Positions 6,523 to 16,618 are shown, counted from the first letter of the stretch. The stretch: 64,000 nucleotides of DNA from Armatimonadota bacterium (GCA_017303935.1 JAFLBD010000001.1:186001-250000), one strand, 5' to 3'. Notes: generated by a model not told the origin, from the sequence alone. Translations and numbers: made by a program.

Positions 6523-8256
6523 TTAGATGACTAGATTCAAACTTCCTGGAGTTTGGTTGTTGATGTGGTTCGAATTGGTTGGTTCTTGTGCCGAATCATC
6601 GCTTCGGAGATTCGCCATTCGGTTAAGTCGTTGAAAGTCTTCGGTGGTGTTTTGTTGACCACGTCCGCTCTCGTTTCCGCCAAATTGAAGAGTTAAGGAG
6701 TTGAGGTTCAGTCCCTTTTGCTCGATCGTGTTGGAAAGCTGCTGCTTTGACTCTTGCATCGCGACCATGACCTTGTCGTTGGTCACCGAGATTTCCGCGT
6801 CCGACTTCGCGCCCATCGTCTTGATGGTCACGCTAATTTCGCCGAGGTTGTCCGGGTTGAGCCGAATGGTCATTTGGCTCAATGGCTTGTGAATTGCCAT
6901 GTCTTCGATTCGGTCAATCGTCTGCTTGATCACCGCTTGTTTGAGCAGCGCGTCAGCTTCGACTGGCTTCGATTCCACCTTGATGGCTGGGTCGAGCTTT
7001 TGAGAGTTCAATTCGCTTCGAGGCGAGACCAGCAACGTGTCCGTCGAATCTGAATTTTCAATTTTCAATTCATCCTGATCCGCTTCCAGGTCTGCAAATT
7101 GAGTTGGAGGAGCACCTTTGCTCGATTCAATGACTGCCTTTGGCTCTGTAGCTGTTGGTTTTACAGCGGGTTCGTTGGCGGACTCGTCGGCGATCGGTGC
7201 TTGCAGAGATTCTTCGGAATCTTGTCCAAGCTGGTTAGATTTCACCTGTCTTTCTTCGGCGATTGCTTGTTGAACCACTGGTGCAGCGACCTCTAACTTC
7301 TTCGCTGACTCTGCTTGTGTTGGAGCCGGAGTATCCTGGACCTCGCCCTGATCAGCGTTTGGCGTCATCGCGACAATCACTTCGGATGCTGGAGCGGGGA
7401 CTTGACCAGCTGTAGTTTGTGTCACCGCTACTTTGGACGGTTCCAAACTGATGACTTCTGGCTTTGTCGCGTCGACTTCAATTGGCGTCACATTACTTTG
7501 GATCGGAGTCGTGGGTGGAGCCGGAATTGGAGTCTGAGTCGTTGGTTGGACGACGGTAGCCGGAGTTGCTGCCGCGCCAGTTGTACCAGTGATACTCACT
7601 GGATTAAGGGTTTGGACCATTTCCGGATCGAGCACCTGGGGAGTGACAGATTTTTCGAGCCCGCGCACCATCATCAACGGCTCTATCGGCTTCGAAGTCG
7701 ATGAGACCTGGGGTTGAGACGTAGCTTGAGGTGCAACTTCGATTGAGTTGGTGCCCGTTTCAGGAACGAATTTACCGGTAGCTACAACTGGGGTCGTGTT
7801 GACTTCAGTTAAAAACCCTGTCGCAGTATTCGGTGTAACCGAAGGAGTTGTCTTGGAACTCGAATCGAAAGCAACGACCGGCATGGCAGCGGAACTGGAT
7901 TGCAGGCTTGCAATCGGTGCTGGTCCAGTTTCGGTAGTGAGAACCTTGCCGATCACGGGCACTGAACTCAACGACGGAGTCGGAGTGACCGCGGCAAACG
8001 GAATGAGAGCCACCGCAAAATTTGCTGCAATGGTTTCTTCTTGGAGAAGCGGGTCCTGCTTGGTGCTCACAGACTTCGGCTGATTTGAGCTTGCTTCCTG
8101 CTCCTCAATATTCGATTGTTTCCCGGTTGGCGGGCTTGCGTCTAGCGCTTGATTCAACTCAGACTCAAATTTTGAATCTGCCTGAAGTTTTGGTTCAGGT
8201 GCTTCCAGCGGCGTCGCGGCCCGACTTCCCAGGATGTTGAGCGTAATGTTCTCCAT
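6523..8256 (-). CDS. fliK: FliK-like flagellar hook-length control protein
   Basis: FliK measures hook length and switches export specificity. The 577-residue protein has a long low-complexity Pro/Thr/Ala/Val-rich region (about 20-420), typical of the molecular ruler, and a C-terminal Flg_hook domain (about 460-545) with PLSQMTIRLNPDNLGEISVT and LNLNSLTLQFGG. An open frame extends further upstream, but the ATG at 8256 (MENITLNILG) is preferred: it is preceded by AAAAGG, lies just downstream of the sigma-28-like promoter, and avoids overlap with the divergent HAD gene. First gene of the fliK-flgD operon. Confidence 0.88.
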   Translation of the reverse strand: MENITLNILGSRAATPLEAPEPKLQADSKFESELNQALDASPPTGKQSNIEEQEASSNQPKSVSTKQDPLLQEETIAANFAVALIPFAAVTPTPSLSSVPVIGKVLTTETGPAPIASLQSSSAAMPVVAFDSSSKTTPSVTPNTATGFLTEVNTTPVVATGKFVPETGTNSIEVAPQATSQPQVSSTSKPIEPLMMVRGLEKSVTPQVLDPEMVQTLNPVSITGTTGAAATPATVVQPTTQTPIPAPPTTPIQSNVTPIEVDATKPEVISLEPSKVAVTQTTAGQVPAPASEVIVAMTPNADQGEVQDTPAPTQAESAKKLEVAAPVVQQAIAEERQVKSNQLGQDSEESLQAPIADESANEPAVKPTATEPKAVIESSKGAPPTQFADLEADQDELKIENSDSTDTLLVSPRSELNSQKLDPAIKVESKPVEADALLKQAVIKQTIDRIEDMAIHKPLSQMTIRLNPDNLGEISVTIKTMGAKSDAEISVTNDKVMVAMQESKQQLSNTIEQKGLNLNSLTLQFGGNESGRGQQNTTEDFQRLNRMANLRSDDSAQEPTNSNHINNQTPGSLNLVI

Positions 8257-8278
8257 CCTTTTGGTTGTCCTGGTAGAA

Positions 8279-8306
8279 ATATCGGCAACACTCAAGAAGC
8301 TCTTTA
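8279..8306 (-). promoter_or_regulatory. Sigma-28 (FliA)-type promoter for fliK operon
   Basis: Read on the minus strand: TAAA (8306-8303), 16 nt, then GCCGATAT (8286-8279), close to the flagellar sigma consensus TAAA-N15-GCCGATAA. It lies 23 nt upstream of the fliK ATG, leaving a leader of roughly 15 nt. The gene it precedes is flagellar, which supports the call. The same architecture and 16-nt spacing occur before the PilZ gene at 27511. Confidence 0.75.
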
Positions 8307-8365
8307 GGACGATTTTTGAATCAGGGTTCCTCTGAGCGAGCTTGACCTGCCATAATTTGACTTGC

Positions 8366-9061
8366 ATGGAAGCCAGCTCACTACGAGCACCAATCAAGGC
8401 GGTGCTCTTTGATGTAGATGGCACCCTTGTGAATACGGTGGAGATGATCATTCACGGTTTGCGTGATGCGTACTCTCACTTGATTCAAAAGCAGTTTTCG
8501 GACGACGAACTCCGCCGTTTGATTGGGATTCCGCTCCGCGTTCAGATGAACCTGTATGGCATGGACGAGATGCGATCTCCAAATCTAGACGAGCGGGAGC
8601 GGTACACAATGGACCGCTACATCGTCCATTCGGACAAGATTCGGCTGTGGAGCGAAGTGACAGAAGCCTATGAGGCGGTCTGCGATCGATTCCCGACCGC
8701 GCTTGTGACCAGTCGAAATCGAGAGGAGCTCGACTGGATGATAACGAAAGTTCCAGTTTTAAGAAAGTCGAAAGTAACCGTTAGCGCGACGGAAGTGAGC
8801 AGGCCAAAGCCTGATCCAGAACCTGCGCTCTTGGCTTGTGAGTTGTTGAATTTGCATCCAAGCGAAACAGTTTTTATTGGTGATGCAACGCACGATATCC
8901 ATTGCGCCAAAAGTGCTGGAATTCAATCCGTTGCCGTGACATATGGCAGTGCTCAGCGAGAGGATCTCGTTGCCGCAAGCCCCGACTTTTTGATCGATTC
9001 TCCCGAGGAGTTTCGAGCTTGGGTCAAGAACAATTTATTGACAGAAAAACATGCGAAATAA
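8366..9061 (+). CDS. HAD-superfamily phosphatase (PGP-like)
   Basis: A 231-residue haloacid dehalogenase-type hydrolase with a helical cap, resembling phosphoglycolate phosphatase/beta-phosphoglucomutase. Motif I is LFDVDGTL (nucleophile Asp16, acid Asp18), motif II is ALVTSRN, and motifs III/IV are RPKPDPEPAL and FIGDATHDI. The substrate is not predictable. The ATG at 8366 gives the expected N-terminus; a TTG 24 nt earlier is open but overlaps the promoter region. CATAAT lies 9 nt before the ATG with no Shine-Dalgarno. The 3' end overlaps the next gene by 11 nt, so the two are probably co-translated. Confidence 0.88.
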   Translation: MEASSLRAPIKAVLFDVDGTLVNTVEMIIHGLRDAYSHLIQKQFSDDELRRLIGIPLRVQMNLYGMDEMRSPNLDERERYTMDRYIVHSDKIRLWSEVTEAYEAVCDRFPTALVTSRNREELDWMITKVPVLRKSKVTVSATEVSRPKPDPEPALLACELLNLHPSETVFIGDATHDIHCAKSAGIQSVAVTYGSAQREDLVAASPDFLIDSPEEFRAWVKNNLLTEKHAK

Positions 9062-12000
9062 GAACTCGGACGACGCGCCAATTAGCGTACCGACAGAATC
9101 GAAGCGAGGTCGTGGACGACCTCGAAAACCAGTCGATCCGGAAGCCGAAAATGCTCCAAAGCGTGGTCGCGGACGACCACGAAAGCCGGTCGCTGAATCA
9201 GAAGCGAACATGCCCAAGCGTGGTCGCGGACGACCTCGAAAGGATGCTTCGGAATCCCTAACTGTTCCTGAAGTAAGCAGCACTTCTGCTGAGTTTCCGG
9301 TGCCGTTCTTCCGCCCAAGAAAGACAACTCCGGAGAAGCAAGTTGCTCGAGCCGAGGACCAGCCAAAGCAAACCGCACCCGCTAAGAACGCAAAGGTGCC
9401 GCTGTTTGGGAAGGCAAAACAGTCCGAAAAGAAGCCAGAAGTCGTCGCGGAGCAGCCTCAGAAGCCAGCCGGCCGCCAATCAAAACGTACGGAATCGAAG
9501 CCCGAAGAGGCGGTAGCGAAGGTGCCAACGGCCCCATTCGTCAGCAACCTCACCTCCCTCGACGGCGAACCATTGCCGAGGCCGCTTTTCCGCACGGTCG
9601 GACCAAACATGATGCCGGTGACCAAGCGCGGTCCTAAGCAGGCCAAGCCGACTCAAGCCGCCGAGGATTCGAGCGCTGCTCCCGCAGAGGAACCAACCGA
9701 AGCACCAGTCCGAAAAGTCCGACAATCTCGACGCGGCGAAAAGCGCGAAGCTGCGATCCAACGCGAGCAAACTGCCCCAGAGCCCGTCGTCGTAGCTGAG
9801 CCGGAGCCAGTCAAAGTCGAGACTCGCGAGATCGTGCGAGTTCCGGCAGATGCTCCGCAAGTGACGGTACGCGATGGTGTTCCGACGCTCGTGCGTGACG
9901 GACGCGTCTTCCCGCCATTATTCTTCTTTGGAAGCGTTGGCGACGAACACAAACTCGAAAACATCCTTGAGCAAGTGAAGATGGCCAGCGAGGTTGGCGT
10001 TCACGTGTTCATCTTGTTTGTCGAGCTGGAAGTCAATGACAACCACCGAGCTGATGACGCCGTTAAGCTCGCTGGCTACTTAACCAAGCAAATCACAGCG
10101 GTTGATCCTCAAGCACAGTTGATCTTCCGAGTGGTGTTTACCGCTGCTTCGAATTGGGAGCAGAAATACAAGCAGGGTCGCTATGTCGCCGAAAATGGGG
10201 GCGTTCCTGAGCCAAGCATCAGCGACGACGAATTCTGGATGGATGCGGAAGCCTGTCTTGTAGACTTTGTGCAAAAGACCCAGCAATTGGACACCGGTAA
10301 GAACGTGATGGGGGTCCACCTCGAGCGAGGCGAATGGTTCTTTGCTAGTGGTTGGGGCTACGATCAGAGCCCGGCCGCACAGGAAGCGTTCCGGAAATGG
10401 GTTCGACTTCGCTACCGAAACGATAGCGTCGCATTGTGCGCAAGCTGGTTCGATGGTCAAGTCCAGTTCGACACGGTTTCTGTTCCGGCATATTTAGATA
10501 AAACTCGTGCGGGCGAAGAGTTCGTACGAACCGGGCGCAAGTCACAGCGGGGGGTGGACTATCACCTGTTCTTGAGCGACAGCACGGTGGAGCGAATCGG
10601 TAGATTGGCCCACGCTGCCAAGAAAGCATCTGATGGTTACTTCCTGGTAGGCGTCAGCTATGGCTATTCGTTCGAATGGAGCCACCCAGCCAACGGACAC
10701 CTCAGCTTGGGCAAGCTGCTGCGAAACCCAGAAGTGGACTTTATCGCTGGGCCGCCAAGCTACAAAAATCGTGAGCCAGGTGGATCATCACCATTCCCTG
10801 GTCCAGTAGACAGCTTCGCGCTCAACGGCAAATTGTATGTCAGCGAAGAAGACTTTAAGACTCCAATCAGCGGGAAGTTTGAACCTGACGACTTTAACCC
10901 GGTGATGAAGACGCCGCAGGCTTTGGAAACCGTCCATTGGCGCGGAGCCGGGTCGGCGCTTGCTCACAGCAGCGGCGTTTGTTGGATGGATCTTTGGGGC
11001 AATGGCTGGCTGAAGACCCACGGAATTTGGGAGCGCGGAAAGGATGTTCTTCGTTCGCTGGTTACTCGAATGGCTGCGCCACCAGCCGATCCTGAGGTCG
11101 CGGTGTTCATCGACGAGCGATCGCTGAGCTATTTGGTGGATGAGCGCGCATTCAGCTTATTGGTGCAAAACGTTCGCGAGTCGATTCTTCGCAGCGGGCT
11201 CTCGGTTGGTTTCTATCTCCTGAGCGATCTTGCCCACCGCGAGCACTTCCCAGAAGCGAAGTTGTACGTGTTCCTGAACGCGTGGGATATTCGGCCAGAA
11301 GTTCGAAGCGCGATCAAATCGCGATTGCAGCGCGATGGCAAGGTGCTGTTCTGGATGTATGCTGCCGGGCTGTTTGATGGTGGACGTGATGCGCTTGAGC
11401 GCGTGCGAGAAGTCACTGGAATTGCTCTGAAGCGACAGCCGTTCGCTTGCAAGAGTGGAACGAGCATTGTCCATCGCAAACATCCACTTTGCGAAGCGCT
11501 ACCCGAGCGGAACTTGAACTTTGGCGGTGAACTTGAACCAAGCTATTTCGCGATTCCAGAAGATTCCGTTGTGCTTGGCGAATACACTTCAACCGGCCTC
11601 CCGAGTTACGTTGTGCGTGACTTCCAAGGCGAAGAGCCAGGTCAATCTTGGACTTCAGTCTTCCTGGGTGAGCCGGTGGTGACTCCTGCGCTTTTCCGTG
11701 CGCTTGGTCAGATGGCTGGCGCGCATGTTTGGAATTACGTTGAAGACGTGGTGCATGTAAGGGCACCGTTTGTGACCGTTCACTGTCGCGGTGCTGGACC
11801 GAGAACCCTTGCTGTGCCCGACAAGGCGTCTGTCTACAACCTTCAGCGCTCTGAGTGGTGCGCGACGGAAGCCAGTCAACACAAGTTTGTCGCGACAGAC
11901 GGAAGCACACACCTCTTCCTAGTTGGCATCAAGAGCGAAATCGAAGCAATTCTTTCAACTGCGCCCGATTCACTCCTGAAGATCGAAGAACTGCCCGAGA

Positions 12001-12302
12001 AACCGGAGAACACGATCAACTTGGATGAAATCCATTTTGATGTTCCTATCATGCGAATGGATAGCTGGGTCGAGGATAGCTGGAATGAGGAGCTGGCAGA
12101 TGTGCTCGTCGTAAAGCCATCGTCGATCAACGTGGATTATCAACTCGCTGATGAGGATGGGAGCGGCAGTTCGAGCGACCGGCGCAACGATCGACGACAT
12201 CAGCGAAGGCGCAAGAATCGCCGACCGAATGAAAGTAAGGGCGGGACATCGCGTGACTTCGACGTTAAGGAGATGAACGTTGTCTTCCGAAAGCGCAACT
12301 AA
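9051..12302 (+). CDS. AT-hook / glycoside-hydrolase-like (GH-A clan, GH42-like) fusion protein
   Basis: A 1083-residue protein with no signal peptide. N-terminus: three identical AT-hook motifs KRGRGRPRK at 18-26, 37-45 and 56-64, then about 200 residues of Lys/Glu/Pro/Ala-rich, probably disordered linker. Residues ~275-900 resemble uncharacterised GH42-like TIM-barrel hydrolases: MGVHLERGEWFF (acid/base candidate Glu428), a downstream AFRKWVRLRYRND segment, IAGPPSYKNREPGG, GKLYVSEEDFKT (nucleophile candidate Glu599/600), SGVCWMDLWG, then a GATase-like domain. The last ~50 residues are Arg-rich (RRNDRRHQRRRKNRR). Family knowledge suggests sugar hydrolysis; the DNA/RNA-binding tails suggest nucleoid or RNA association. 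The combined function is unknown. It overlaps the HAD gene upstream and era downstream. Confidence 0.85.
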   Translation: MRNKNSDDAPISVPTESKRGRGRPRKPVDPEAENAPKRGRGRPRKPVAESEANMPKRGRGRPRKDASESLTVPEVSSTSAEFPVPFFRPRKTTPEKQVARAEDQPKQTAPAKNAKVPLFGKAKQSEKKPEVVAEQPQKPAGRQSKRTESKPEEAVAKVPTAPFVSNLTSLDGEPLPRPLFRTVGPNMMPVTKRGPKQAKPTQAAEDSSAAPAEEPTEAPVRKVRQSRRGEKREAAIQREQTAPEPVVVAEPEPVKVETREIVRVPADAPQVTVRDGVPTLVRDGRVFPPLFFFGSVGDEHKLENILEQVKMASEVGVHVFILFVELEVNDNHRADDAVKLAGYLTKQITAVDPQAQLIFRVVFTAASNWEQKYKQGRYVAENGGVPEPSISDDEFWMDAEACLVDFVQKTQQLDTGKNVMGVHLERGEWFFASGWGYDQSPAAQEAFRKWVRLRYRNDSVALCASWFDGQVQFDTVSVPAYLDKTRAGEEFVRTGRKSQRGVDYHLFLSDSTVERIGRLAHAAKKASDGYFLVGVSYGYSFEWSHPANGHLSLGKLLRNPEVDFIAGPPSYKNREPGGSSPFPGPVDSFALNGKLYVSEEDFKTPISGKFEPDDFNPVMKTPQALETVHWRGAGSALAHSSGVCWMDLWGNGWLKTHGIWERGKDVLRSLVTRMAAPPADPEVAVFIDERSLSYLVDERAFSLLVQNVRESILRSGLSVGFYLLSDLAHREHFPEAKLYVFLNAWDIRPEVRSAIKSRLQRDGKVLFWMYAAGLFDGGRDALERVREVTGIALKRQPFACKSGTSIVHRKHPLCEALPERNLNFGGELEPSYFAIPEDSVVLGEYTSTGLPSYVVRDFQGEEPGQSWTSVFLGEPVVTPALFRALGQMAGAHVWNYVEDVVHVRAPFVTVHCRGAGPRTLAVPDKASVYNLQRSEWCATEASQHKFVATDGSTHLFLVGIKSEIEAILSTAPDSLLKIEELPEKPENTINLDEIHFDVPIMRMDSWVEDSWNEELADVLVVKPSSINVDYQLADEDGSGSSSDRRNDRRHQRRRKNRRPNESKGGTSRDFDVKEMNVVFRKRN
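9102..9242 (+). repeat. 57-bp periodic repeat encoding three AT-hooks
   Basis: Three 27-bp units begin at 9102, 9159 and 9216, exactly 57 bp (19 codons) apart, each encoding KRGRGRPRK. The units share a core close to GGTCGCGGACGACC and differ mostly at third positions, so the protein repeat is maintained while the DNA has drifted. The 30-bp spacers differ in sequence. Confidence 0.9.
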
Positions 12303-13218
12303 GCCGTTCAAGAGCGGGATCGTCGCTCTTGTCGGGAAGCCAAATACGGGCAAGAGCTCGCTGACCAACCTATTGGTCGGTCAGAAAGTGAGCATTGTCA
12401 GCGATAAGGCACAAACCACTCGGCACCGGATTATTGGCGTGGCAACCACTGACGAATACCAAATCGTACTGGTGGACACTCCAGGAATTCACAAGCCCCA
12501 CACTCAGCTCGGCAAAATCTTGAATGAGACCGCACAGTCTTCGATCGAAGGTGCCGACGCGTTGGTGATCATGGTCGATGCCAGCAAGAAAGTCGACAAA
12601 GAGGACGAGGCGATCGCTACAATGCTGAAGCAAACGCATTGGATTGATGCCGATGGAAAGGCTAAGCCGAACGTCATTCTCTGCTTGAACAAGATGGATG
12701 TTTTGCGCGCGATTGACGTCGAAGATCGCTATGAATCATTCACTAAGCTCTTCGGTACTGAAAATTTGATGATGACCAGCGTCACCAAAAATCAGAACGT
12801 TAATAAGCTGATTGAGATGATCTTGGAGCATTTCCCGGCCGGGCCGATGCTATATCCAGAAGACGAAATCACTGACCAGCCTGTCCGGCGTCTTGCCGCA
12901 GAATTGGTTCGCGAGAAGGTCTTGCGGCTGACGCGCCAGGAAATTCCACACGCTGTTGCAACGATCGTTGACGACTGGGAAGAAGAGCGCAATCTGGTTC
13001 GAATCGCGATGAGCATTATCGTCGAAAAAGATGGTCAAAAGGCGATCTTGATCGGCAAGCGAGGGGAAATGCTCAAGAGGATTGGGACCGAAGCTCGGTT
13101 GGAGATAGCAGACATCGTAGGGAAGAATGTTTTTCTTGAGCTGTTTGTCAAGGTCCGCACTGATTGGCGACAAAATCCACGAATGCTCCATGAATTGGAG
13201 TACACCGAAGGTTCCTAA
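12280..13218 (+). CDS. era: Era, ribosome-assembly GTPase
   Basis: Era binds the 3' end of 16S rRNA and checks 30S maturation. The 312-residue protein has P-loop GKPNTGKS (19-26), switch region TTRHRI, G3 DTPGIHKP, G4 NKMD, and a C-terminal KH domain with IGKRGEMLKRIGTEAR followed by the usual ending VRTDWRQNP. The TTG start at 12280 is preferred because AAGGAG lies 7 nt upstream; it places the first 23 nt inside the preceding gene. It converges with the O-GlcNAc-transferase-like gene, sharing four bases (CTAA). Confidence 0.96.
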   Translation: MSSESATKPFKSGIVALVGKPNTGKSSLTNLLVGQKVSIVSDKAQTTRHRIIGVATTDEYQIVLVDTPGIHKPHTQLGKILNETAQSSIEGADALVIMVDASKKVDKEDEAIATMLKQTHWIDADGKAKPNVILCLNKMDVLRAIDVEDRYESFTKLFGTENLMMTSVTKNQNVNKLIEMILEHFPAGPMLYPEDEITDQPVRRLAAELVREKVLRLTRQEIPHAVATIVDDWEEERNLVRIAMSIIVEKDGQKAILIGKRGEMLKRIGTEARLEIADIVGKNVFLELFVKVRTDWRQNPRMLHELEYTEGS

Positions 13219-14885
13219 GCGTCTACGAGCTGTTTAATTAGTTTTCCGAACTTTACTGCGTAGTCTTTGGTATCCATCAACGGGCTATTCATGAGAGAAT
13301 CCCGGACTTCAGGGCGGGAAGGACGAGATTGAACAAGCCGCTGGACAATATGGGCGAATTCCTTTGGATCATTGGCGATCCAATCGCCGTGCCCTGTCGC
13401 GGTGAGGATGCTTCCTGAGACCCGTGACCGGTGGTTGGTTCCAGCTAGGCTAACCACCGGAGTTCCCATTAGAAGGCACTCAATCGTCGTAGTGGTACCT
13501 GTATACGGAAATGAATCCAGAGCCACATCGACCGCCGCAATCCTTCGGAGATGATCGGCGTGTGATGCCACAGAAGTCAAGATCTCCACTGTGATATTGG
13601 AACCAAAACTCTCATGGATGTGACGCAAAATCCTCGGTCCTGGTGAGTAGTTGAGCTTCAGAATCAGCTTGCACTCTCCGACATCTTCCAAGGCTTGTGC
13701 CCAAAGCTTGAAGGTGGTGTCTGTGAGCTTTTCGCTGGCGTTGAAAGAGCCGAAAGTGAGTATCCCAGTTCGGTCATCTTGTGGCAGAGGGGGCAACGGT
13801 GCACCGTAGTCGTAGCATAGAAACGGTCGATCTAACAGAAGAACTTCGTTGTTCCCATCGTCTGCGTAGGCGTCGCCGAGCTGATCCGCGAGCGGAGATG
13901 CCATTGGGTAACCGATGGCACTGATGACTTTTCTGGCAGGATGACAGGCTACGTAGTCTGGCCGGCTGGAATTTGACATTCCTCCTAGATCAATGAGTAG
14001 GTCTAAATTGTCCCTCTTTATGATTTCGAGATTCTTCGAAAAATCTGTACTCGGTGAGAAGTCTCGATAGTTCAGAAGCTTGGCGTATTGTTCGGTCACC
14101 GAATCAGGTCGATCTGTTGTGGAGTAGACGAAAACTTCGAATCCCGAACGCCTCAAATTTTCGATTAAATAGCGGCAAAAATAGTCGACCGCGTGTTCTC
14201 GAAAATCGCCGCTGATAAATCCGACACCTATTTTCCTAGAATTTCTGGAGTTAAGTGAGATTCGGGGAAACTGCTTTTTGAACGCGAGTGCTGACTGATT
14301 ATGGTGTTGGACAACCTGCGTTTCCGGCAAATGGTCGCAATAGAGTGCCGACTCGGCCAAATTTCTCTTGATATTTAATGTTGGAAATTCAGCGGAATAT
14401 TCAGCGAGAAAGTCGTGTGCGAGGCAAACATCATCACGTCGCAAAAGACCGTAATGGTTCAAAATCACAGCCTCGTTTCGACTGATCAATAATCGTCGTT
14501 TGCTGAAAGATATGGCTTCCGAAAGGAAATTTTGATTTGCGAGGCAGATCACATGGCGATCCAGAAGTTCAATATTTGTCGGATCAATCGCGATCAACCC
14601 AGAGGAAATCGTGAGCGCTTCAGCAAATCGGCGGAGGTTCACGAGCACCTTAAGGAGTGCAAACTGAATTCCGTGATCATTTGGCACTAACTCATATGCA
14701 CGCGTCAAGCAGTCCGCGGCTTCACTAGGTTGCTGGAGGCTATTGAAGAGCATGCCGCAATGCGCCTGAATAGCGGCCAAGTCCTGATGGCGCGCCGAGA
14801 GTGCTACTGCCATGGACTTGGCTTCCTCGAATCGCCCTTGCTTCGCAGCAGCGAGCGCTTGCTGAAACTCGGCTATTGGGTCCAA
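13215..14885 (-). CDS. TPR + O-GlcNAc transferase-like (SPINDLY/GT41 family) protein 2
   Basis: A 556-residue protein with N-terminal TPR-like helices (about 1-160) and a C-terminal GT41-type glycosyltransferase region: VGFISGDFREHAVDYF, DLLIDLGGMSNSSRPD, GILTFGSFNASEKLT, and the nucleotide-sugar site LDSFPYTGTTTTIECLLMGT followed by THRSRVSGSIL. Such bacterial proteins are predicted to glycosylate proteins, sometimes flagellins. It overlaps the upstream paralogue by 13 nt, so the two are co-expressed and may act as a pair. Its DNA looks somewhat more AT-rich than its neighbours. Acceptor and donor are unknown. Confidence 0.85.
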   Translation of the reverse strand: MDPIAEFQQALAAAKQGRFEEAKSMAVALSARHQDLAAIQAHCGMLFNSLQQPSEAADCLTRAYELVPNDHGIQFALLKVLVNLRRFAEALTISSGLIAIDPTNIELLDRHVICLANQNFLSEAISFSKRRLLISRNEAVILNHYGLLRRDDVCLAHDFLAEYSAEFPTLNIKRNLAESALYCDHLPETQVVQHHNQSALAFKKQFPRISLNSRNSRKIGVGFISGDFREHAVDYFCRYLIENLRRSGFEVFVYSTTDRPDSVTEQYAKLLNYRDFSPSTDFSKNLEIIKRDNLDLLIDLGGMSNSSRPDYVACHPARKVISAIGYPMASPLADQLGDAYADDGNNEVLLLDRPFLCYDYGAPLPPLPQDDRTGILTFGSFNASEKLTDTTFKLWAQALEDVGECKLILKLNYSPGPRILRHIHESFGSNITVEILTSVASHADHLRRIAAVDVALDSFPYTGTTTTIECLLMGTPVVSLAGTNHRSRVSGSILTATGHGDWIANDPKEFAHIVQRLVQSRPSRPEVRDSLMNSPLMDTKDYAVKFGKLIKQLVDA

Positions 14886-16618
14886 CGTTTGCTCACAATG
14901 TCCTCGATCATCGCCTCAAATCGACGGGCGTATCCGGCGTGATCGAAGATGACGGAATCCTGAACTTGCTTACGCAATGATTGCCTCGACGCTCGTAATC
15001 CCTCGAGATCGTCCACCATTTTGCGGACAACTTCCACAAGTTCTTCGCTGGTGTCGACGGCCCATTCTGGATGGCCGATAGCGGCGAGAAGGCTTTGGGT
15101 CACTCGGCTGCGATGAACGGTTCCAGAAACGGACACCACGGGCACTCCCATCATCAGGGATTCCATCGTGGTCGTGGTTCCGTTGTACGGGAATGTGTCG
15201 AGCGCAATGTCGATTTGGTTGTAGGTCTGGATGTGGGCGTCTGGACTTTTGGCATATGGCAAGAACCGGATTCGGTCCCCAAGGCCATATTTATCGAATT
15301 CTGCTTTCAGACGATTCTGGACGACTGGTGCCCCTGAACGGAGGCTCTTCAGGAGGAGTTCTGATTCTGGGAAAGCTTGCAACATCGCGCTCCAGTGGCG
15401 CACCGTTGTGGAAGTGATTTTGACGTCGTTGTTCAAAGATCCGAAGGTCAGACGTGAGCCCGATTGGCGACGAACAATGTTCGGCAGCGGATAAATCGGG
15501 TCGTAGGTCAAGAAGCACGGATCCATCCGGTAGCGCTGCTCTGGCCCCCAATCTTCCGAATCTGAAGGATCAGTGATCGAATCGACGATTCTGTAGTCGA
15601 TGCATGGAGAGCCAACACTCGACGCGTAGCCGATCATCGAGATAATCACCGGGGCGGGCCGGGTCGTGATGACGTCGGGGCGACCGCCACCGGTCAACCC
15701 AGCTAGGTCAATCAAGACGTCGATTTCGTCACCTATGATGAGATCGTACAAAGCTCCCGTTGAACTGACGGAATGCGGTCGAAAGGTCATCAGGCTTCGA
15801 TATTGTTTAGTAAACGAATCAACGTGAACGTTGAGGCTATAGCCGAACAGCGAGAACTTGGACTGGTCAATGTTCTTCAAAAGCGGCAGAAGGAAGAAGC
15901 TAACTGAATGGGCGCGAAAATCTGCGGAGAGAAACCCTAGTCGCAACTTACCGCTGGGCTGTTTGACCGAAGGGCGATAACCAATGGCGAGTCCCTTTTG
16001 CAACTCCGCGACTTCGTTATGAATCTTTGCAATCTCAGATTCCGGCAAATCGTCGGGATAGAGGGTGTCCGGTGCAAGCGATCTCAAGAGTAATCGGCTG
16101 GGGCTGCCGGCAAGAATCTTCTGCAAAAATTCAGCGCCGCGCTTTGGGTCGAAATCGCGCAATGTCGCATAGAAATTTTGGGTCACTTGCTCATTGGTCG
16201 GTGCCAGTTCATGAGCGCGTTGTCCAGCAATAGCAGCACTTTCATAGTCGCCGAGGTGAACGTGGCAGTTCATGGCCAGGTCAAAGGCATCCATCGCATT
16301 TGGATCGTCTTTGCAGATTTCATTGGCAATCACCAGCCCTTCCTTATATTTCTTCTGCGCGACCAAGGAGGCGCCAAGGCCCGATTTCGCGGTCAGGAAA
16401 GTTGGGTCGAGCTTCAATGCGCGGGAGAAATAAACTTCGGCGTCGACTGCTTTTCCAGATTGGAGATGGATGACCCCTGCAACGTACTGAACCCAAAAAT
16501 CCTTTGGAAATTGGATTGCAGCTCGAACGATGGCTTGAATCGCATCTGCTCGGCGATCTGACTCCATCAACAAGACTGCTTTTTGCGCTAATTCCTTTGC
16601 AACAGACACTAAGGGCAA
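14873..16618 (-). CDS. TPR + O-GlcNAc transferase-like (SPINDLY/GT41 family) protein 1
   Basis: A 581-residue paralogue of the downstream gene. TPR repeats occupy about 1-170 (for example AVDAEVYFSRALKLDPTFL). The catalytic half has LGFLSADFRAHSVSFF, DVLIDLAGLTGGGRPDV, LTFGSLNNDVKITSTTVRHW, IDIALDTFPYNGTTTTMESL and VHRSRVTQSLLAAIGHPEW, the expected nucleotide-sugar-binding ladder. No signal peptide, so cytoplasmic. The start is a TTG at 16618 and is uncertain; a CATAAT hexamer abuts it. Protein O-glycosylation is the family expectation; flagellar proteins are plausible targets because flagellar genes are nearby, but this is inference. Confidence 0.87.
   Translation of the reverse strand: MPLVSVAKELAQKAVLLMESDRRADAIQAIVRAAIQFPKDFWVQYVAGVIHLQSGKAVDAEVYFSRALKLDPTFLTAKSGLGASLVAQKKYKEGLVIANEICKDDPNAMDAFDLAMNCHVHLGDYESAAIAGQRAHELAPTNEQVTQNFYATLRDFDPKRGAEFLQKILAGSPSRLLLRSLAPDTLYPDDLPESEIAKIHNEVAELQKGLAIGYRPSVKQPSGKLRLGFLSADFRAHSVSFFLLPLLKNIDQSKFSLFGYSLNVHVDSFTKQYRSLMTFRPHSVSSTGALYDLIIGDEIDVLIDLAGLTGGGRPDVITTRPAPVIISMIGYASSVGSPCIDYRIVDSITDPSDSEDWGPEQRYRMDPCFLTYDPIYPLPNIVRRQSGSRLTFGSLNNDVKITSTTVRHWSAMLQAFPESELLLKSLRSGAPVVQNRLKAEFDKYGLGDRIRFLPYAKSPDAHIQTYNQIDIALDTFPYNGTTTTMESLMMGVPVVSVSGTVHRSRVTQSLLAAIGHPEWAVDTSEELVEVVRKMVDDLEGLRASRQSLRKQVQDSVIFDHAGYARRFEAMIEDIVSKRWTQ

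Follow-up and report, generated by a model that had tools for sequence, protein, structure and literature searches.

We describe a gene in a 64,000-nucleotide (nt) stretch of DNA from an Armatimonadota bacterium (the window; coordinates are counted from its first letter), whose host belongs to the order Fimbriimonadales in the phylum Armatimonadota. The gene encodes what we call the tailed protein, a core resembling the GH42 glycosidases with a basic, apparently disordered arm at each end. The most specific conserved feature of this protein is a short motif built on [FW]R, which is repeated in the N-terminal arm and recurs at the extreme C-terminus. It is apparently previously undescribed, and it was absent from an earlier note on this stretch. 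The putative catalytic glutamates of the core have been lost repeatedly while arms, C-terminal motif and era linkage all stay, and it is from this pattern that we favour, tentatively, a multivalent scaffold on a GH42-type trimer that would bind nucleic acid, probably RNA, and dock a partner. If this explanation is true, these bacteria would have a degradosome or ribosome-assembly hub that is independent of RNase E.

A repeated motif in the arms and at the C-terminus

The N-terminal arms of Fimbriimonadales proteins carry one to six copies each of the consensus [DE][DE]-L-P-[VI]-[PVL]-x-[FW]-R-[PSA]-[RK]. In these arms an arginine follows 77 of the 108 tryptophans and 95 of the 276 phenylalanines, where 11% would be expected. 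Enrichment was measured on arms thinned to 80 that share <15% of their 5-mers; these hold 124 sites, compared with a mean of 9.6 and a maximum of 21 over 1000 shuffles. A variant, N-V-[VM]-F-R-K-R-[DE], ends 90 of the 91 full-length proteins of the order and reads EMNIVFRKRE in other members of the window's genus. The remainder of the C-terminal arm serves as an internal control and shows no excess of the motif (4 sites, 4.1 expected).

A genome search with the C-terminal motif, for which the pattern is incomplete, gave a single match in each of 17 of the 27 genomes, always at the tailed gene, and none in the other 10. The strict N-terminal arm motif matches ten times in 36 genomes, five of these in the tailed gene. 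Four of the other five matches were examined and set aside: one lies in an amylase-type domain and three fall outside the open reading frames (ORFs) listed with the motif. If the tailed protein is a scaffold, the motif would be a direct handle on its partner.

Repeated loss of putative catalytic residues

We aligned 108 orthologues and assigned catalytic roles by alignment. D503, D601 and D647 are invariant in all 108. However, a glutamate is missing at E428 and/or E599, the putative acid/base and nucleophile, in 16 rows, one of which (L189) is a fragment. This state requires at least six changes on the tree, and several of the rows sit on longer end branches. All of them retain the C-terminal motif, all except the 5′-truncated fragment have a long N-terminal arm, and the linkage to era stays. 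The putative nucleophile is replaced, mostly by leucine (SLED), in L173, L174, L183, L188, L190–L192, L196–L198 and L215. These loci are a natural set of candidate pseudoenzymes.

We favour the view that sugar binding or cleavage, though probably an ancestral ability of the core that most species may still have, is not its universally required function. The earlier note had read the protein as a sugar enzyme tethered to DNA. A reading close to this one is on the unlikely side: the protein would be an active cytosolic glycosidase that cuts a glycoside within the cell, with arms that serve only to hold it on the nucleoid or RNA. E428 and E599 are kept in some 87–90% of orthologues, the three pocket aspartates do not vary and the fold is that of GH42; furthermore, the window's genus has HMGA-type hooks, and a domain of this type is known from Myxococcus CarD to bind AT-rich DNA (PMC4374960). 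However, the hooks are limited to that one genus, and the acid/base context is GEW instead of the 'NE' of GH42. The putative catalytic glutamates are also lost again and again where the arms, the motif and the era linkage are kept, and on this ground the earlier proposal is unsupported as it was stated.

Basic disordered arms

An AlphaFold2 model, built with a 14-sequence alignment, has a predicted local distance difference test (pLDDT) score below 50 across nearly all of amino acids (aa) 1–250 and 998–1083. An Arg-rich patch, DRRNDRRHQRRRKNRR in the window protein, lies in the C-terminal arm, and a patch with at least 7 lysines or arginines in 14 residues is found in 99 of the 103 orthologues that possess this arm. 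No hydrophobic segment was found in the first 60 residues of any of the 108 orthologues, the window protein included; the tailed protein is predicted to be cytosolic and to have lost an export signal.

The N-terminal arm of the window protein carries KRGRGRPRK three times, an RGRP core with basic flanks as in AT-hooks. The copies have a period of 57 nt and are not a fresh duplication, because at the DNA level they are just 80–93% identical. RGRP arrays are limited to the window's genus (the window, L002–L004 and L042); outside it the arms are rich in lysine, arginine, proline and alanine instead. Two further nucleotide matches to RGRPRK in the host genome, with no ORF listed with the motif, were taken as chance. 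Judged from sequence, the conserved element is the architecture itself: a basic arm, a GH42-like core and an Arg-rich C-terminal arm.

Several claims of the earlier note are thereby confirmed, namely three identical hook motifs (at aa 18–26, 37–45 and 56–64), a disordered linker with a basic C-terminal tail, and a cytoplasmic protein that lacks a signal peptide. It had also treated the AT-hooks as the defining element and proposed their conservation in homologues as a check. This was not borne out, as the hooks are not conserved beyond the genus and other basic arms stand in their place.

A core related to GH42

The model places a TIM barrel, a flavodoxin-like domain and a beta domain between the two arms, which is the three-domain arrangement of GH42. 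A Foldseek search of the PDB puts GH42 beta-galactosidases on top (E 1e-20, about 750 columns, 12–14% identity). The barrel that had been expected from sequence, and that was to be looked for in a structure model, is present in the model as part of a full GH42-like core. Compared profile to profile, the tailed protein and the canonical GH42 members from Armatimonadota match at E 4.4e-5 over 516 columns, with a probability of just 69%. The GEWF and SEED motifs remarked on earlier are there and fall in the expected regions: GEW lies near the GH42 acid/base glutamate, where the Asn-Glu pair of GH42 is absent, and SEED lies at the nucleophile. A MAFFT alignment concurs that E599 occupies the nucleophile position; yet E599 is lost in some orthologues. 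A search of a viral structure library returned generic glycosidase folds only.

Named families come close to this protein without covering it. The Pfam models Glyco_hydro_42 (12.2 bits, curated cut-off 21) and AT_hook (11.4 bits, curated cut-off 17.4) do not reach their cut-offs on the window protein, and just four of the 14 aligned members reach the GH42 model at E 0.1. The window protein has no NCBIfam match at E 0.1; a weak match (0.011) of one of the 14 relatives to an unrelated effector family was taken as chance. Sequence searches of the PDB gave weak GH42 matches only with the whole protein and its profile, and no match with the hook segment. A search of the open-access literature by title and abstract found nothing relevant on an AT-hook/GH42-type fusion or on a tailed protein of Armatimonadota. 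The tailed architecture was found in no named family searched and no described protein has the same layout among the families and papers covered, in line with the earlier note. The features of the gene are collected in Table 1.

Table 1. Features of the tailed gene and its immediate neighbours in the window
Feature	Position	Strand	Basis
Tailed GH42-like protein gene, whole	9051..12302	+	ATG to TAA, intact, 1083 aa
Disordered basic N-terminal arm (aa 1-261; 54 K/R, 36 D/E, 38 P)	9051..9833	+	pLDDT, composition
AT-hook-type motif 1, KRGRGRPRK (aa 18-26)	9102..9128	+	sequence
AT-hook-type motif 2, KRGRGRPRK (aa 37-45)	9159..9185	+	sequence
AT-hook-type motif 3, KRGRGRPRK (aa 56-64)	9216..9242	+	sequence; Pfam AT_hook below cut-off
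Short linear motif copy 1, FPVPFFRPRK	9294..9323	+	order-wide N-terminal arm enrichment
Short linear motif copy 2, around PLPRPLFRTVG	9564..9602	+	N-terminal arm enrichment
TIM-barrel domain (~aa 262-675)	9834..11075	+	AlphaFold2 secondary structure; Foldseek GH42; profile-profile
Putative acid/base Glu E428 (GEWF)	10332..10334	+	E in 94/108 orthologues; near Glu of GH42 'DNE'
Putative nucleophile Glu E599 (SEED)	10845..10847	+	E in 97/108 orthologues; aligns with GH42 nucleophile Glu
Flavodoxin/GATase-like domain, GH42 'trimerisation' position (~aa 680-800)	11088..11450	+	AlphaFold2, Foldseek
C-terminal beta-rich domain (~aa 835-985)	11553..12005	+	AlphaFold2, Foldseek
Arg-rich patch in disordered C-terminal arm	12177..12224	+	composition
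C-terminal motif EMNVVFRKRN	12270..12299	+	C-terminal site conservation in order
HAD-superfamily phosphatase gene	8342..9061	+	Pfam; overlaps tailed gene start by 11 nt
era	12280..13218	+	Pfam MMR_HSR1 + KH_2; TTG start behind AAGGAG

Distribution and origin

Among 61 relatives from the order, all 50 good genomes have a homologue, nearly always in single copy. The gene is near-universal in a bacterial order of an understudied phylum, yet it is unnamed in Pfam and NCBIfam. Across the phylum 161 of the 194 good genomes have a match, remote relatives included. In 14 of these genomes the matches are 24–37% identical, with several per genome in many; a hydrophobic segment opens many of the matching proteins, which stop at the beta domain. 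Beyond the order, further families of Armatimonadota also have tailed orthologues.

A FastTree phylogeny places 104 tailed proteins on one side of a branch and 12 tail-less relatives on the other, with Shimodaira–Hasegawa (SH) support of 100. The sequences point firmly to an ancient GH42-like derivative that is cytosolic and tailed, one branch of which is linked to era. On sequence and prediction together, the ancestral lineage was secreted, and the tailed branch lost the signal peptide and gained basic disordered arms. What began as a secreted glycosidase lineage would here have become a cytosolic, multivalent, era-linked protein that is sometimes putatively catalytically dead.

Gene neighbourhood

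In families f1 and f5, 81 of the 83 distinct loci have era as the next gene downstream, on the same strand, so the linkage that was noticed earlier is a conserved one, kept in most Fimbriimonadales. Its start is most likely the TTG at 12280, which overlaps the end of the tailed gene by 23 nt. The overlaps of the tailed gene with its HAD and era neighbours had also been pointed out. Both are present in the window, but at other loci the HAD gene is adjacent just about half of the time (28 of 55 further loci). In family f2 (L075–L077, L219–L221) the tailed gene is present and era is not downstream; at L077, L219 and L220 the next frame starts RRIIPCLDI, resembling HisF. On the other side, a FliK-like flagellar hook-length control protein (6523-8451, minus strand) diverges from the HAD gene, and FliK-like matches on the opposite strand are also found upstream in L031, L032, L034, L035 and L038.

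Two tandem TPR proteins (13215-16618, minus strand) are convergent with era in the window. The first has a Pfam Glyco_transf_41 match (O-GlcNAc-transferase-like) and the second is similar to the first. Other members of the genus also have homologues of these TPR/GT41 proteins next to era, none were found at the remaining loci, and GT41 glycosyltransferases as a functional partner were rejected, being beside era in the genus only. They bear on another explanation, that of an intracellular glycan binder or handler, with a sugar polymer or glycoprotein as the ligand of its GH42 pocket and a non-nucleic anionic polymer (polysaccharide, polyphosphate or membrane) as that of its arms. Polybasic arms have no specificity for nucleic acid, and GT41-type genes do converge on era in the window's genus; however, none were found beside era outside the genus, and the conserved context is the linkage to era itself. 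We consider this explanation quite improbable.

Finally, the idea that the C-terminal motif is a side effect of selection on the nucleotides of the era ribosome-binding site, with arms of neutral low complexity, is very improbable and already largely refuted: FRKR(D/E) codons are purine-rich and era begins a few bases past the stop codon in most species, but the motif is not merely that site because it is kept where no same-strand era follows (L207, L218, L075–L077), and the internal N-terminal arm copies, far from era, are strongly enriched.

A proposed multivalent scaffold

The scaffold that we favour would work as follows. GH42 beta-galactosidases are homotrimers, and for this reason the tailed core may also assemble as a trimer and act as a hub. 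Nucleic acid would be held by the Arg-rich C-terminal arm together with the N-terminal arms (RGRP hooks in the genus and K/R/P/A repeats outside it). The most likely ligands are RNA or pre-ribosomal particles, which we prefer because of the Arg-rich, RGG-like composition of the arms and the era neighbour. The [FW]R motifs, 1–6 per chain and so 3–18 per trimer, would dock a partner protein.

Several observations weigh against this explanation. Around 85% of orthologues retain both putative catalytic glutamates, and no orthologue varies at D503, D601 or D647, so strong selection still acts on the core pocket. The disorder is inferred from low pLDDT with a 14-sequence alignment, and basic low-complexity arms are common in many proteins. 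Furthermore, other classes, outside Fimbriimonadales, showed no [FW]R motif, and era is not downstream in family f2 or in the sampled other classes.

A more specific version is that the tailed protein is a phylum-specific ribonucleoprotein hub, similar to a degradosome or to a ribosome-assembly platform, for which a once secreted GH42 trimer was domesticated, with RNase E/G left armless, a new docking motif, and a core that is dispensable in some lineages. We regard this version as unlikely. RNase E/G is an open frame of 575–687 aa in 30 of 31 genomes and of 954 in one, and frames of just 575–687 aa leave little room for a scaffold arm, a point in favour of the broader scaffold explanation too. 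In the host genome RNase E/G was rejected as the carrier of such an arm, as its ORF is 600 aa without a long arm.

Comparison with known systems

The scheme parallels RNase E, where arginine-rich segments hold RNA and short motifs hold PNPase. Arg-rich motifs in the disordered region of RNase E bind RNA (PMC11964227), while PNPase is recruited by EKPRRGWWRR, the 10 residues at its very end (PMC10412687). The C-terminal scaffold of RNase E is thus disordered and combines Arg-rich RNA binding with short docking motifs, one of them at the extreme C-terminus (PMC11964227, PMC10412687). The tailed protein likewise has a disordered Arg-rich arm with repeated short motifs. However, its catalytic core is unrelated, it has arms at both ends and another motif sequence, and it has a GH42-like core in place of a ribonuclease domain, RNase E/G being a separate gene.

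For the hooks the closest parallel is Myxococcus CarD, a bacterial protein whose HMGA-like AT-hook domain binds AT-rich DNA (PMC4374960). As in the tailed protein, the RGRP hooks of CarD lie in an intrinsically unfolded region (PMC4374960). In CarD they are fused to an RNA-polymerase-binding domain, whereas here they are fused to a glycosidase fold.

With the GH42 beta-galactosidases (3tts, 5e9a, 1kwg) the tailed protein has in common the three-domain fold over about 750 aligned columns, the nucleophile glutamate and the signature FRxW..RY..D..AL.A.W. It differs in its 12–14% identity, below the Pfam cut-off, in GEW instead of NE at the acid/base site, in the additional invariant D601 and D647, in the arms at both ends, and in the absence of the putative catalytic glutamates from some orthologues.

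Nearer relatives are the signal-peptide-bearing GH42-like proteins of other Armatimonadota (L133–L162), with cores 22–31% identical to that of the tailed protein and the GEW and (S/N/V)E(D/E)D motifs in common. Several copies per genome are frequent, the N-terminus is signal-like in many of these proteins, and the chain stops at the beta domain, with no arms. They make up an expanded set in other classes, with invariant equivalents of Asp 601 and 647, and are possibly an undescribed glycosidase family.

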